Source: Bacteroidales bacterium (GTDB taxonomy: Bacteria; Bacteroidota; Bacteroidia; Bacteroidales; P3). Taken from it: a stretch of 64,000 bases of DNA. Positions 1 through 63,085 of the stretch are shown piece after piece. Numbering within the stretch: the stretch's first letter is position 1; each line of letters starts with the position of its first letter. The stretch is taken from positions 1-64,000 of the forward strand of contig JAQVXZ010000004.1 in assembly GCA_028708845.1 (NCBI GenBank), read 5' to 3'. A program made the translations under genes and the position numbers. The notes beneath the pieces were generated by a model. That model was not told the DNA's origin and ran no database searches. It was given only the letters and a program-made list of their open reading frames with translations.

Positions 1-96
1 GTTTCACGAAATTGAATCTTCGTTTTAAAAATTTCTTTCTTTGTTTCAGCAAATTCTTTCTTTGTTTTAATTTCCTAACTCTGCGTTTCATTTCCT
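1..96. repeat. 21-bp tandem array, left part cut by window edge
   Basis: GTTT(C/T)A recurs at 1, 22, 43, 64 and 85, an exact 21-bp period. Complete units start at 13, 34, 55 and 76, and a decayed unit may start at 97. The best core is TGAATCTTCGTTTTA at 13-27; other units have TCTTTCTTTGTTTCA-type cores in which the left arm has lost symmetry. The array lies 3' of the hydrolase gene that ends at 233 on the minus strand. It belongs to the same family as the arrays near 13.3, 29.5, 51.0 and 62.9 kb. The array continues beyond base 1, so its full length is unknown. Confidence 0.85.
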
Positions 97-7532: not shown

Positions 7533-8219
7533 ATGGATATGAAAAAAAGATTTACTCTTATATTTATGATCTTAATGCTAGTAACAGCATTTAATGTTCA
7601 AGCACAGCCAAATATTGCAAAGAAAAGTACGGAGCAAATTAATGGTCAATTTGTTTTACCTAAATTGCCTTATGAAATGAATTCTCTTGAACCTCATATT
7701 TCGCAAAAGACTCTTGAATTCCATTATGGTAAACACCATCAATCATATGTTGATAACCTAAATAAGTTAATTGTTGGAACAGAATTTGAAAAGTCTACAC
7801 TTGAAGAGATTGTTATGAAATCAAGCGGTGGAATATTCAATAATGCAGCTCAAGTTTGGAATCATACATTCTATTGGAATTGTTTAACTCCAAAATCGAA
7901 ACTTAAACCTAGTGGAAAGTTACTTAGAGAAATTGAAAAAGAGTTTGGAAGCTTTGAAGATTTTAAAACAAAATTCACAGCTGCTTCTTTAAGTTTATTT
8001 GGTTCAGGATGGGCTTGGCTAGTTAAGAATGCAGATGGGAGGTTAGAAATCATTCAAACCTCTAATGCAGAAAATCCAATTAAGCAAGGAAAAACTCCTC
8101 TTCTAGTATGTGATGTTTGGGAGCATGCATATTATATAGACAAACTAAATCGCCGTCCTGCTTACTTGGAATCATTCTGGCAAATTGTTGACTGGAAAAA
8201 AGTAGGAGAAAGATTATAA
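7533..8219 (+). CDS. sodB: superoxide dismutase, Fe/Mn family, exported copy
   Basis: 228 residues. A Sec signal peptide (KKRF then a hydrophobic core and AQA-type site ending around residue 25) is followed by a short linker and a full SOD domain. The ligands are conserved at His64, His111, Asp194 and His198, offset by 36 from the upstream copy. The mature part matches the upstream SOD almost residue for residue, so this is a recent tandem duplication with addition of an export signal. Initiation could be at the ATG at 7533 or 7539. The enzyme would defend the periplasm or surface against superoxide. Confidence 0.92.
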
Positions 8220-13335: not shown

Positions 13336-13440
13336 TGAATCTTCGTTTCAGCAAATTAAAACGAAGATCTAGCAAATTAAAATGAAGATTCAGCAAATTC
13401 TTTCTTCGTTTCATTTCCCTAGATCTTCGTTTCATTTTAC
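13336..13440. repeat. 21-bp tandem array, five units with two inverted cores
   Basis: Units start at 13336, 13357, 13378, 13399 and 13420, exactly 21 bp apart. Cores: TGAATCTTCGTTTCA, TAAAACGAAGATCTA, TAAAATGAAGATTCA, TCTTTCTTCGTTTCA, TAGATCTTCGTTTCA. The second and third are in the opposite orientation to the others although the spacer (GCAAAT) keeps its direction. The array is between two convergent genes. Confidence 0.92.
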
Positions 13441-29398: not shown

Positions 29399-29570
29399 TA
29401 AGATGCCCATCTCAACGTGCTAAGATGTACATCTCAACGTGCTAAGATGTACATCTCAGTGAGCTAAGATGTACATCTTAGTAAAATGAATCTTCGTTTC
29501 AATAGTTTTATACTTTGTTTCAGGAGTTTTATTCTTTGTTTCAGAAGTTTAATATTGCGTTTCCTGTTTT
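29399..29570. repeat. composite tandem array: four 22-bp units then four 21-bp units
   Basis: The 359-bp gap between convergent HIT and recO genes holds the terminator and this array. Block 1: units at 29399, 29421, 29443 and 29465 (22 bp) with cores TAAGATGCCCATCTCA, twice TAAGATGTACATCTCA, and TAAGATGTACATCTTA, the last a perfect 16-bp palindrome. Block 2: units at 29487, 29508, 29529 and 29550 (21 bp) with TGAATCTTCGTTTCA, TTATACTTTGTTTCA, TTATTCTTTGTTTCA and TAATATTGCGTTTCC. The second block starts exactly where the next unit of the first is due. A degenerate unit may precede at 29377. Confidence 0.92.
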
Positions 29571-39844: not shown

Positions 39845-39982
39845 CCACATACCCATGTCGCACTCCCTCACATGGGCATGTCATGGCTCCTGACATGGGT
39901 ATGTCACGTATGCTGACATGGGTATGTGAGCGACCTTGACATGGGCATGTCAGGAACCGTGACATGGGTATGTCATGAGTTT
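39845..39982. repeat. 23-bp tandem array with TGACAT-ATGTCA cores
   Basis: This 451-bp gap between two plus-strand genes holds a terminator, this array and a possible promoter. Six units at 39845, 39868, 39891, 39914, 39937 and 39960 are exactly 23 bp apart. The core is TGACATGGGTATGTCA or the GGGC variant, arms TGACAT/ATGTCA around four bases. The first unit has the opposite orientation (CATACCCATG). Spacers of 7 bp differ in every unit. Flanking sequence (CTTTGTTTCA around 39830, TGATTCTTCATTTAG at 39982) looks like 21-bp-family units. Confidence 0.92.
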
Positions 39983-49574: not shown

Positions 49575-50384
49575 TTGAAAAAGGATTTATTTTTACTAAA
49601 AAAGGCTTTAAAACCTTTTTATAATATGTATCTAAAGCTATATATGGATTTAGATAAGACTGAAAACGACTTAATAGAAACAGAGTTTAATAGGAAGGTT
49701 ATTAGGCTAGACAATGACGTGTCAGATATTATGACAGCTAGGGTTGATATATTGGCATTAGAGTTTTCAACTCCCTTTAATGAAGTTATGGAGACTATTG
49801 CAAAGAGTGGGTTTTCGAGGATTCCTGTTTACGAAAATGAATTAGACCAAATAAAAGGGGTGCTTCATGTTAAGGATCTTTTTAAATACTTATGCGTTGA
49901 TAAAGAATTTGAATGGAATAGGATAATTAGGGAAGCTTTTTTTGTTCCAGAAACAAAGGACGTTAATGACCTGTTAAAAGAGTTTCAAGAAGATAAACGT
50001 CACCAAGCAATTGTTGTTGACGAGTTTGGCTCTGTTGTAGGAATTGTTAGCTTAGAGGATATTTTAGAAGAAATTGTTGGAGAGATTATTGATGAATTTG
50101 ACTCCCTACAACCTTCATTATTTACAAGACTAGGGAAGAGGAGCTATTTGTTCGCAGGCAAAATTAGTATTAATGACTTCTGTAAAGCAATTGGTCTTCC
50201 TGACGATAAGCTTTTTGAAGAGGTTAAGGGTGATGCTGATACTTTGGCGGGAATGCTTATTGAAATTGCAGGTCATTTGCCAAAGCAAGGAGAGAAGATC
50301 AAGTTCCAGAACTATATCTTTGTTGTTGAAAAAGCTGACAATAGAAGGATTGAAATAGTTAAACTTACTATTAAAATTGATTAG
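49575..50384 (+). CDS. gldE: GldE-like CBS/CorC-domain protein lacking the membrane domain
   Basis: 269 residues from the TTG at 49575, or 252 from the ATG at 49626; an in-frame stop lies just upstream at 49560. A CBS pair (DIMTARVDILALEFSTPFNEVMETI to DEFGSVVGIVSLEDILEEIVGEI) is followed by a CorC/HlyC domain ending in VEKADNRRIEIVKL. The position next to gldD identifies it as the GldE counterpart, needed for gliding/T9SS in Flavobacterium. Typical GldE proteins have an N-terminal DUF21/CNNM membrane domain of about 150-180 residues that is absent here. A TACTTTTG element lies at 49542-49549. Confidence 0.8.
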   Translation: MKKDLFLLKKALKPFYNMYLKLYMDLDKTENDLIETEFNRKVIRLDNDVSDIMTARVDILALEFSTPFNEVMETIAKSGFSRIPVYENELDQIKGVLHVKDLFKYLCVDKEFEWNRIIREAFFVPETKDVNDLLKEFQEDKRHQAIVVDEFGSVVGIVSLEDILEEIVGEIIDEFDSLQPSLFTRLGKRSYLFAGKISINDFCKAIGLPDDKLFEEVKGDADTLAGMLIEIAGHLPKQGEKIKFQNYIFVVEKADNRRIEIVKLTIKID

Positions 50385-50391
50385 TACTAAG

Positions 50392-50982
50392 ATGCAAAAG
50401 AGATTTTTTTTATTAGCGATATTATCTGCGGGTCTTTTCATTGCTTGCTCGGGAGATAAAAACTCAGCCCCTAAGCCAAAGACTTATTTCCGAATAGACG
50501 TTCCTTTACCAATCTATCAGAAGTTCGATACCTTAGGACTTCCTTTTATGTTTGATTATCCAAACTATGGAGTCGTAGAAAAAGCAGAACAAAGGTTTGA
50601 TAATAAGAATTGGTTTAATATAAACTATCCTGATTATGGATGTAAGTTATATTTAAGCTTTGTTGGTCTTTCTCCAAAAAACACTTTGTCTAATCTGGTA
50701 AATGACAGTTATAATTTAACCAAAGAACACGATAAGTTTTCAAGTGGAGTAATAGAAAGAGCATATTCGAATCAGGAGGCTAAGGTTTATGGTTATGTTT
50801 TTGAGATAAAAGGAACCAAGGTAGTTTCGCCTTATCAGTTTTACATAACCGATAGTTCTCGTTATTTTGTTAGAGGAGCTTTATATATTGAGTCAAGCCC
50901 AAATACCGATTCCCTTTCTCCAATAATCCAGAGACTGACCCAAGACTTAGATTATATGATTTCTACCTTTGAGTGGAAGTAG
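50392..50982 (+). CDS. gldD: gliding-motility/T9SS lipoprotein GldD
   Basis: The ATG at 50392 gives 196 residues; the longer reading begins at a TTG at 50377 inside gldE. The lipobox is LFIAC, followed by KPKTYFRIDVPLPIYQKFD and LPFMFDYPNYG, which are diagnostic for GldD. The protein is anchored in the membrane and supports T9SS or gliding function together with GldE. The gene follows the gldE stop by 7 bp. Confidence 0.92.
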   Translation: MQKRFFLLAILSAGLFIACSGDKNSAPKPKTYFRIDVPLPIYQKFDTLGLPFMFDYPNYGVVEKAEQRFDNKNWFNINYPDYGCKLYLSFVGLSPKNTLSNLVNDSYNLTKEHDKFSSGVIERAYSNQEAKVYGYVFEIKGTKVVSPYQFYITDSSRYFVRGALYIESSPNTDSLSPIIQRLTQDLDYMISTFEWK

Positions 50983-50998
50983 TGCTTATATGCTAAAA

Positions 50999-51145
50999 TG
51001 AAACGCTGTTTCAGAGAAATGAATCAAAGAAAGAATTTACTGAAACAAAGAAAGGATTTACTGAAACTTCGTTTCAAGAAATTAAAACAGCGTTTCAGTG
51101 GATTAAAACGAAGATCTAATTTGGTGAAACAAAGAAAGAAAAAGG
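50999..51145. repeat. 21-bp tandem array, seven units, clearest palindromic cores
   Basis: Seven units start at 50999, 51020, 51041, 51062, 51083, 51104 and 51125, each exactly 21 bp. Cores: TGAAACGCTGTTTCA, TGAATCAAAGAAAGA, TGAAACAAAGAAAGG, TGAAACTTCGTTTCA, TAAAACAGCGTTTCA, TAAAACGAAGATCTA, TGAAACAAAGAAAGA. The first and fourth are perfect inverted repeats TGAAAC-N3-GTTTCA. The array lies between convergent gldD and the DUF5606 gene and runs into a terminator. Confidence 0.95.
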
Positions 51146-51179
51146 GACTTAATTAATCAATAACTAAGCCCCTTTCTTT
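51137..51179 (-). terminator. terminator between gldD and the DUF5606 gene
   Basis: AAAAAGGGACTTA near 51139-51151 pairs with TAAGCCCCTTTCTT at 51165-51178 with a few mismatches. It is T-rich on the minus strand and overlaps the last unit of the array. Confidence 0.6.
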
Positions 51180-51200
51180 ATGTTGAAAAGCCTAAATAAA

Positions 51201-51632
51201 CTATTCTTCAGTAGCTTTTTCAGTCTCTTGTGTTTCTTCTTCTTTCTCGTTTAAGTCAATAAGATTTATTTGATTTAATATATTATACCAAGTAAATAGC
51301 TTTTTCATATCAGAGGTATAAACCCTTTCTAAATCAACATTAGGAAGCACTTCTTTCATATAGCTAACAAGTTCTTTAGTATCCGATTTAGGGTTGATAC
51401 ATTCCTTGCCTTCTTCTTTCTTATAAATTTCTTGAAAGACTTTTGACAGTGGCACATCTTCATCAGTTGTGAATATGCTTATATCTTCTAGTGAGCTGAT
51501 TTTTTCTTTTGCAAATGCTTGTTGGCGTTTGCCGTCAATTAGAGATTCTATTAATGCTCCGTTTTTTGTTTGTGAAACAAGTTTAAACAATCCTGGCTTG
51601 CCCGATATTGATAATATCTTACTTAAATCCAT
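51201..51632 (-). CDS. DUF5606-family protein
   Basis: 143 residues. MDLSKILSISGKPGLFKLVSQTKNGALIESLIDGKRQ is the conserved start of a Bacteroidota family now called DUF5606; the SM-like/beta N-terminus suggests nucleic-acid or protein binding but no function is known. The last 20 residues are Glu-rich. It follows the S4-domain gene by about 40 bp, perhaps in one transcript. Confidence 0.8.
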   Translation of the reverse strand: MDLSKILSISGKPGLFKLVSQTKNGALIESLIDGKRQQAFAKEKISSLEDISIFTTDEDVPLSKVFQEIYKKEEGKECINPKSDTKELVSYMKEVLPNVDLERVYTSDMKKLFTWYNILNQINLIDLNEKEEETQETEKATEE

Positions 51633-57325: not shown

Positions 57326-57457
57326 CAATACGCCATAATGCCAAAAGTAAAACGCCGTTTTAAGGTGGTTAAAGTGGCGTTTCGAGGGTCTTAAAACGGC
57401 GTTTCATTATGGTTAAAGTGGCGTTTTACTTTTGTTAAAGTGGCGTTTTGGTTTTTG
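57326..57457. repeat. 22-bp tandem array with TAAA(A/G)(C/T)G-GCGTTT cores
   Basis: This array occupies most of the first half of a 371-bp gap between two plus-strand genes. Units at 57348, 57370, 57392, 57414 and 57436 are exactly 22 bp apart, with a decayed unit at 57326. Cores: TAAAACGCCGTTTTA, TAAAGTGGCGTTTCG, TAAAACGGCGTTTCA, TAAAGTGGCGTTTTA, TAAAGTGGCGTTTTG. The TAAAAC-GGC-GTTTCA core is the same as one unit of the array at 51 kb. The rest of the gap (57458-57645) is G/T-rich then A/T-rich; no clear promoter was seen. Confidence 0.92.
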
Positions 57458-57645
57458 TGGGGCTTTGGTTTGGTTTTTGTAGGGCTTGGGTTTGGGAGAT
57501 TTGGAAAAGGGGGTTTTTGGTTATAATGCAGGGTTTTTTATTAAATAATATTAAATTTTTAGGTCTTGATACAATAAGTTTTAGATATATAGCGTTTGGT
57601 TTTGTAGTTTATAACAAGTAATATTAACCTTAAAAATTAAAAGTT

Positions 57646-58053
57646 ATGGCAATTAAGTATGTTAGAGTTAAGCGTATTATTCAGGTGGGTGCGAACCCTG
57701 GACAGAAGTATTTGGCAAGACAGGTTAAGAAGAAGACTATATCTTTTGACCAGATTGCAGAGAGGGTACAAGCCCATTCTTCGATGACAAAGGCTGATGT
57801 TTATGCGTCTTTTATGCAGGCTGTGGAGGAGATTACTGAAGAGTTGATGGAAGGAAATCCTGTTCAGCTGGGTGAGTTAGGGACTGTTTACCCTACCTTT
57901 TCTGCCAAGGCTGTGGATGATTTGGAAGATGTTGATGCTAGTACTATCTCGAAACCTAAGCTTAGATTCCTATTTTCTAAGAAGCTAAGGGAGAAGATGA
58001 AGGAGGTTCCTGTGGAGCTTGACAAGTCTCAAGAGATTAAGGGTCTTCAATAG
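57646..58053 (+). CDS. HU-like DNA-binding protein
   Basis: 135 residues of the Bacteroidota HU-related family: KYVRVKRIIQVGANPGQKYLARQVKKKTISFDQIAERVQ then a dimerisation region with GNPVQLGELGTVYPTFSAKAVDD, and a C-terminal Lys-rich tail. It lacks the classic long beta-arm Pro motif of HU, so DNA bending is not assured. Nucleoid-associated or DNA-structure-binding protein. It ends at a strong terminator. Confidence 0.85.
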   Translation: MAIKYVRVKRIIQVGANPGQKYLARQVKKKTISFDQIAERVQAHSSMTKADVYASFMQAVEEITEELMEGNPVQLGELGTVYPTFSAKAVDDLEDVDASTISKPKLRFLFSKKLREKMKEVPVELDKSQEIKGLQ

Positions 58054-58074: not shown

Positions 58075-58109
58075 AAAACGCCGATTTGTTTGATGCAAGT
58101 CGGCGTTTT
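58075..58109 (+). terminator. intrinsic terminator after the HU-like gene
   Basis: AAAACGCCGA at 58075-58084 pairs with TCGGCGTTTT at 58100-58109, perfect 10 bp. Its arms resemble the cores of the nearby 22-bp array. Confidence 0.8.
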
Positions 58110-58243
58110 GTGGTTTGAGATAATGGGTTTTCTGGTTCGAGATAATAGATTTTATGTTTTTATTTTCTAAATTATAGTATAGTTGAAAAAATATACTTAC
58201 TTTTGCAAGACTAAGATTTAAAATAATTTAAAAGAAGATAATT

Positions 58244-62852: not shown

Positions 62853-63085
62853 TAAAACTCTGAAAGGATTGTCTGAATCAAAGAAAGAGAAAAATAAAAC
62901 GCCATAATAATTTTCTAGAACAAAGAAAGGATTTCCTAAAATAGCGTTTCATTTCACTAAGGTGCCACCTTACACATAGTAACCTGCCACCTTACTCGAG
63001 TAACCTGCCACCTTACTATAAGTAACCTGCCACCTTACTCAAATAAGTCTTTGTTTCATTAAACTAAATCTTTGATTTACAAGAT
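62853..63085. repeat. composite tandem array, eleven units of 21-22 bp
   Basis: The gap from 62760 to 63228 is mostly this array. Units start at 62853, 62874, 62895, 62916, 62937, 62958, 62980, 63001, 63023, 63044 and 63065. The middle block has TAAGGTGCCACCTTA (a perfect TAAGGT-GCC-ACCTTA inverted repeat) and three copies of TAACCTGCCACCTTA. The outer units are of the TGAATCAAAGAAAGA, TAGAACAAAGAAAGG, TAAAATAGCGTTTCA and TAAGTCTTTGTTTCA type. All units keep a T(A/G)A start in phase although the core changes. The rest of the gap is A/T-rich. Confidence 0.93.

Follow-up and report, generated by a model that had tools for sequence, protein, structure and literature searches.

In the Bacteroidales genome considered here (2.43 Mb in 58 contigs), a tandem array of 21 bp units begins 16 bp after the stop codon of gldD and holds its phase exactly from position 50999 to 51125. 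What kind of element this array is, and whether its fixed unit length reflects a bound protein, a transcript, a peptide or the way in which the repeats are copied, is the question raised by this locus. The window, meaning the whole stretch of 64,000 bp that was analysed (bases 1–64000 of contig C17), carries arrays in each of the seven intergenic regions for which a preliminary description had reported them (Table 1). The unit consists of a 15–16 bp core with T as its first and A as its last base, often in the form TRA...TYA, and a 6–7 bp spacer, an anatomy that had been correctly read at the outset. Additional 22 bp G/T-rich tandem repeats are located at 57447–57495 and 58105–58160, around a gene of the HU family (57646–58053).

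Table 1. Arrays of the window and features of the gldD locus (positions in the whole stretch).
Feature	Position	Strand	Remarks
Class A array, 21 bp	1..96		Contig C17 begins inside array
Class A array, 21 bp	13336..13440		Cores in both orientations
Class B family F2	29399..29480		Four 22 bp units with core TAAGATGTACATCTCA
Class A units, 21 bp	29487..29570		In register behind F2 block
Class B family F4	39845..39982		Six 23 bp units with core TGACATGGG[TC]ATGTCA; loop occurs in either orientation, variable spacers
gldD, gliding motility lipoprotein GldD	50377..50982	+	NCBIfam TIGR03512, E 1.9e-49
Focal class A (F1) array	50999..51145		7 units of exactly 21 bp; TNNNNC-NNN-GNNNN[AG] cores in both orientations; 6 bp A/T-rich spacers
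Terminator-like hairpin (AAAGGGACTTAA..TAAGCCCCTTT)	51137..51180		Adjoins array, between gldD and convergent gene 51201-51632; read in sequence
22 bp array	57330..57457		F1-like cores TAAAACGCCGTTTTA and TAAAGTGGCGTTTTA
Class A units, 21 bp	62853..62957		Lead in register into family F3
Class B family F3	62958..63037		Four units of 21-22 bp, TAAGGTGCCACCTTA followed by TAACCTGCCACCTTA
Class A units	63044..63085		Behind F3

The arrays are genome-wide and beyond chance. In the intergenic DNA within 464 kb of this genome, 901 windows of 42 bp repeat themselves at lag 21 (mean of 0.0 in 20 dinucleotide shuffles), 816 at lag 22 (1.6 in shuffles) and 71 at lag 23 (0.6 in shuffles), and any other single lag from 10 to 41 yields at most 37. 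The maxima of self-similarity fall at 21, 22 and 23 bp and at the doubled values, with almost none elsewhere. Unit lengths of 21, 22 or 23 bp, and an architecture that stays constant as the core sequence changes, are therefore borne out across the genome; the periodicity is neither reproduced by shuffled sequence nor limited to the window, as it recurs in relatives. Arrays were found in 80 of 322 intergenic regions of an 846 kb sample of this genome, which is an upper estimate because about half of the sampled stretches were picked near hits, biasing array frequencies upward; genes were called by a simple longest-ORF rule. The contig ends at window position 1, at the end of G009:C178 and at the start of G004:C49 lie in or beside arrays, which indicates that draft assemblies under-represent them. 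A long 22 bp array of the CTTACCCTAAAAGTCAGTCTTT type at L090:8897-9225 (G000:C33) merges into TTAAATCCAAAACTAAGAAG units.

The arrays fall into two classes, A and B, which need to be separated. Class A (family F1, 21 bp) has TNNNNC-NNN-GNNNNA cores in both orientations, built from half-sites that include TGAAAC, TAAAAC, TGAATC and TCTTTC, and its mean fold z of about −1.3 to −1.5 compares with −1.1 in array-free intergenic regions. Class B has units of 22–23 bp (21–22 bp in F3) with conserved palindromic cores (TAAGATGTACATCTCA in F2, TAACCTGCCACCTTA in F3, TGACATGGGTATGTCA in F4, TAATACGGCGTAATA in F5, TATGTTGGCAACATA in F6, plus others) and nearly free spacers, 24 of the 27 F4 spacers being distinct. 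On both strands, F2, F4, F5 and F6 fold much more stably than shuffled sequence, with a mean fold z of about −8 to −9, and F3 does so to a lesser degree, at about −3, so that the single family into which the arrays had initially been merged is divided. The palindromic core ascribed to all arrays holds for the 22–23 bp families (29399–29480, 39845–39982 and partly 62958–63037) and fails as a general rule, since class A cores are palindromic at the level of chance: perfect palindromes make up 5.7% of the 87 distinct 21 bp cores, against 8.4% expected from the half-sites used (P=0.24). Over all copies there is a deficit (F1, 5.0% vs 12.7% expected; F2, 1 homotypic palindrome vs 9.2 expected). The idea that class A is selected for perfect palindromes is thus rejected, and avoidance of them is not claimed because the deficit is non-significant among the distinct F1 cores. 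In the focal array, two of the seven cores are perfect palindromes and the remaining five pair at 5, 4, 3, 2 and 1 of 6 positions; its fold z of −5.4/−6.8, which includes the two perfect cores, is unlike the class A mean. The fold z of the F2 block at 29399–29480 is −5.2/−6.7 with neighboring class A units included, and the units in region 1–96 lack any 6+6 dyad at 0–1 mismatch.

Despite this division, class A and class B share one register. Several families (F1–F6 and others) occur in one genome at a near-constant unit size, the outer T..A is common to several of them, and class A units flank F2, F3 and F4 blocks, with phase kept in F2 and F3. F2 copies are composite, consisting of F1-like units, 4–5 F2 units and again F1-like units, with the two flanks mutually inverted. 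Given that these flanks recur and that similarity between copies fades at about 70–80 bp from the block, F2 is read as a dispersed composite with an estimated size of roughly 220 bp.

The dynamics of the units can be seen in relatives, especially in G009, at about 93% identity. The comparison covers five orthologous arrays with both sides from G009 and two from G004, a small number because contigs in the draft assemblies of relatives frequently stop within arrays. Three of the five class A arrays differ between G009 and this genome by exactly one 21 bp unit. Of the remaining two, the first is the same over its whole length in both genomes, and the second has had about 40 bp replaced at unchanged phase. 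The other aligned intergenic DNA (4,278 bp) has no gap of more than 7 bp. The substitution rate in arrays, 0.115, is near that of other intergenic DNA, 0.093, with 0.076 in coding DNA, and an F2+F1 array aligns with its G004 counterpart without gaps and with many substitutions. The differences by one unit and the in-phase replacement of a tract suggest a gain and loss of units through slippage or unequal recombination, together with in-register conversion between arrays at other places in the genome that homogenizes the units, whereby phase would be kept while sequence changes. In G009, the site corresponding to the F4 array after 39714 is taken by a different sequence resembling an inserted transposase gene (L201, G009:C252:14900-16500).

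Since 21 bp correspond to seven codons, class A arrays could be small genes encoding basic heptad-repeat peptides. The example at the focal array is MKRCFREMNQRKNLLKQRKDLLKLRFKKLKQRFSGLKRRSNLVKQRKKKGLN, where a 52-codon frame opens with an ATG at 50998 and closes with a stop beyond the repeats (50998–51159). An ATG stands at the first unit in many arrays, and in-frame stops are few (14 in 169 units). The antisense frame, however, is just as stop-free, in-frame stops occur in a number of arrays, and the predicted peptides have no family match. In addition, the L068 array at 7669–7767, in which both strands contain stops, is nearly identical in G009 except for one deleted unit, and class B units, which share the register, are 22–23 bp long and hence not multiples of three. 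The coding test of class A was negative, with open frames and no sign of protein selection. This explanation is very improbable, and the frame over the focal array is probably incidental.

The position of arrays relative to gene ends, which the preliminary description had proposed to tabulate, is strongly biased. The comparison used a single sample throughout and counted intergenic regions between ORFs of 90 or more codons; arrays are present in 27 of 51 regions between convergent genes, in 33 of 155 between co-directional genes and in 9 of 64 between divergent genes (convergent vs divergent: odds ratio 6.9, P=1.4e-5). Between co-directional genes, 24 of the 33 arrays lie closer to the upstream gene's 3′ end. 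Arrays may be tolerated at gene ends because they would harm promoters.

The convergent bias is also consistent with chains of intrinsic terminators, in which a 15 bp arm plus a 6 bp spacer would be half a hairpin and neighboring inverted units would be bidirectional terminators. The density of stems of at least 9 bp is 5.4 per kb in arrays and 1.0 per kb in other intergenic DNA, and at 11 of 54 convergent gene ends the array itself contains a stem-loop with a T-tract, a structure also present in relatives. The region orthologous to that behind gldD provides examples: in G008, G034, G025 and G013, it contains other 21 bp-spaced units whose neighboring inverted pairs form terminator-like hairpins, with stems of 16–18 bp and T/A tracts in the first three and of 12 bp in G013. 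Nevertheless, most class A arrays of this genome lack such a structure, are largely in a single orientation and fold like array-free DNA, and several arrays sit beyond a separate terminator. Convergent ends carry terminator-like hairpins at the same frequency whether arrays are present (27/54) or absent (24/48), which indicates that arrays do not replace terminators; a role as terminator substitutes is rejected. Intrinsic terminators and the present arrays are thus alike where inverted neighboring units form a stem and T-tract in some relatives, whereas most arrays here are of another form and coexist with ordinary terminators. As an account of the arrays, terminator chains are decidedly improbable. 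The region behind gldD in G002 and G005 contains a hairpin only.

The distribution among relatives was surveyed in stretches of 20 kb or shorter. A signal at lags of 20–24 bp is present in all 8 stretches from the genus and in 13 of the 22 taken from the family; in stretches from other families of the order it was found in 0 of 20 at lags 21–23 and in 1 of 20 at lag 24; some further Bacteroidales loci, with no family assigned, also have it. The trait is clade-specific and ends near a family boundary, and array sequences differ among species. F2 is found in 6 of 61 genomes, belonging to two genera in a patchy manner, and F1-like arrays in 14; F2 is absent from 6 of the 11 genomes of the window's own genus. 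The carriers of F2 are G000, G003, G004, G008, G009 and G021, and it is lacking in G001, G002, G005, G006, G007 and G010. In G021, which belongs to the other genus, F2 cores (AAGATGTACATCTT) are abundant (L104, L110, L216, L217), although they are absent from those six genomes; either horizontal spread or repeated loss could account for this. The gene downstream of the focal array has relatives from uncultured Bacteroidales. Another kind of intergenic repeat, consisting of head-to-tail TTTAAGG heptamers, is located at L238:300-448 in G011 of the same family.

This distribution bears on whether the arrays are DNA-level platforms for a clade-specific protein that binds cores and spreads along the array, with the spacing of the protein fixing unit length and each family having its own core; nucleoid organization and insulation between convergent genes are the uses that come into question. 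The clade boundary, the retention of the F2 core across genera, the common outer T..A and the conservation of cores beside variable spacers argue for such a platform, and protein binding has been proposed for satellites of this type (PMC8161180). Conversely, class A half-sites are randomly combined, and behind gldD there is almost no intergenic DNA in G001, G003 and G006, which have no equivalent of the array, long or short. Nor do periods of 21, 22 and 23 bp hold one helical face: many units are 22 or 23 bp long and rotate by about 34° or 69° per unit at 10.5 bp per turn, and 21 bp cores are mostly not dyads, so that the suggestion of dimers aligned on one face of the DNA does not stand. A binding platform is therefore rather unlikely. 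A lineage-restricted protein family, or one protein tolerant of the inner sequence, could coat the DNA between convergent genes at 21–23 bp spacing, with species exchanging core families together with the cognate protein, as the patchy F2 set might suggest; this variant is distinctly improbable.

Several known systems resemble the arrays in part. Like REP, BIME and REPIN elements, they are short tandem palindromes at gene ends; unlike these, they have a fixed unit length, many unrelated core sequences and no RAYT link, and the GTAG or CGTC tags of REP/REPIN do not occur, by reading, in the listed F1–F6 core sequences. That a RAYT transposase mobilizes them as REP/REPIN-type elements is suggested by their dispersed, palindromic and intergenic nature and by RAYT-like genes in G000, yet the array-rich genomes G001, G003, G004, G009, G013 and G021 have no Y1_Tnp match, whereas many array-poor genomes do. 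This uncorrelated distribution contradicts a RAYT mobilizer, the probability of which is practically negligible. CRISPR loci likewise combine a constant, partly palindromic core with varying spacers, as in F4 here, but their spacers are about 20 nt or more, in contrast to 6–7 bp at many dispersed loci. Phage carriage was also considered, and no viral contig has the exact two-unit patterns of F1 or F2. Rfam yielded zero matches at gathering score in the window.

Subirana and Messeguer reportedly described bacterial satellites with constant units of 20–23 nt in J Bacteriol in 2020. In another article by these authors, tandem repeats of constant size are given as 20–21 nt and 52 nt in Bacillus and 20–23 nt in many groups, with variable and mostly species-specific sequence; protein binding or a small RNA is proposed, and about 21 nt is remarked to equal two helical turns (PMC8161180). 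The element is thus not undescribed, as had been supposed, and the arrays belong to this published kind: units of constant size are present in at least four copies, several families of the same size exist per genome, and the arrays probably lie outside protein genes. Constant unit size, variable sequence, several families per genome, a non-coding nature, about 4–10 units and probably restriction to clades or species are shared with the satellites of these authors (PMC8161180, PMC6749651). Relative to the accessible portions of these sources, the palindromic core with its free spacer, the two classes in one register, the composite element, the measured turnover of whole units, the strong convergent bias and the clade boundary are new here; the strings "palindrom" and "cruciform" are absent from the text of PMC8161180.

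The arrays are best explained as non-coding, dispersed and clade-specific intergenic satellites of the bacterial 20–23 nt kind, combined with a structural role of class B at 3′ ends. Satellite identity and dynamics are very probable, the 3′-end role is tentative, and the combination has about an even chance of being correct. Class B blocks, if transcribed, would fold into successive short hairpins from whichever strand is read, and these may act as BIME-like 3′-end structures by stabilizing transcript ends or blocking read-through, and class A blocks alone would need no function. Against this explanation, F2 cores (GATGTACATC) persist patchily across six genomes from two genera, beyond what neutral drift would lead one to expect, which leaves room for sequence-specific binding. 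The equal frequency of terminator-like hairpins at convergent ends with and without arrays likewise counts against it.

These arrays offer a handle on why some bacteria carry constant 20–23 nt satellites of unrelated sequence: more than half of the sampled convergent intergenic regions have arrays, single units are gained or lost between close relatives, and structured and unstructured classes share one register. Because the trait ends near a family boundary, candidate proteins can be searched for by presence and absence, and the symmetric anatomy together with the fast turnover provides a route to the function of such repeats.
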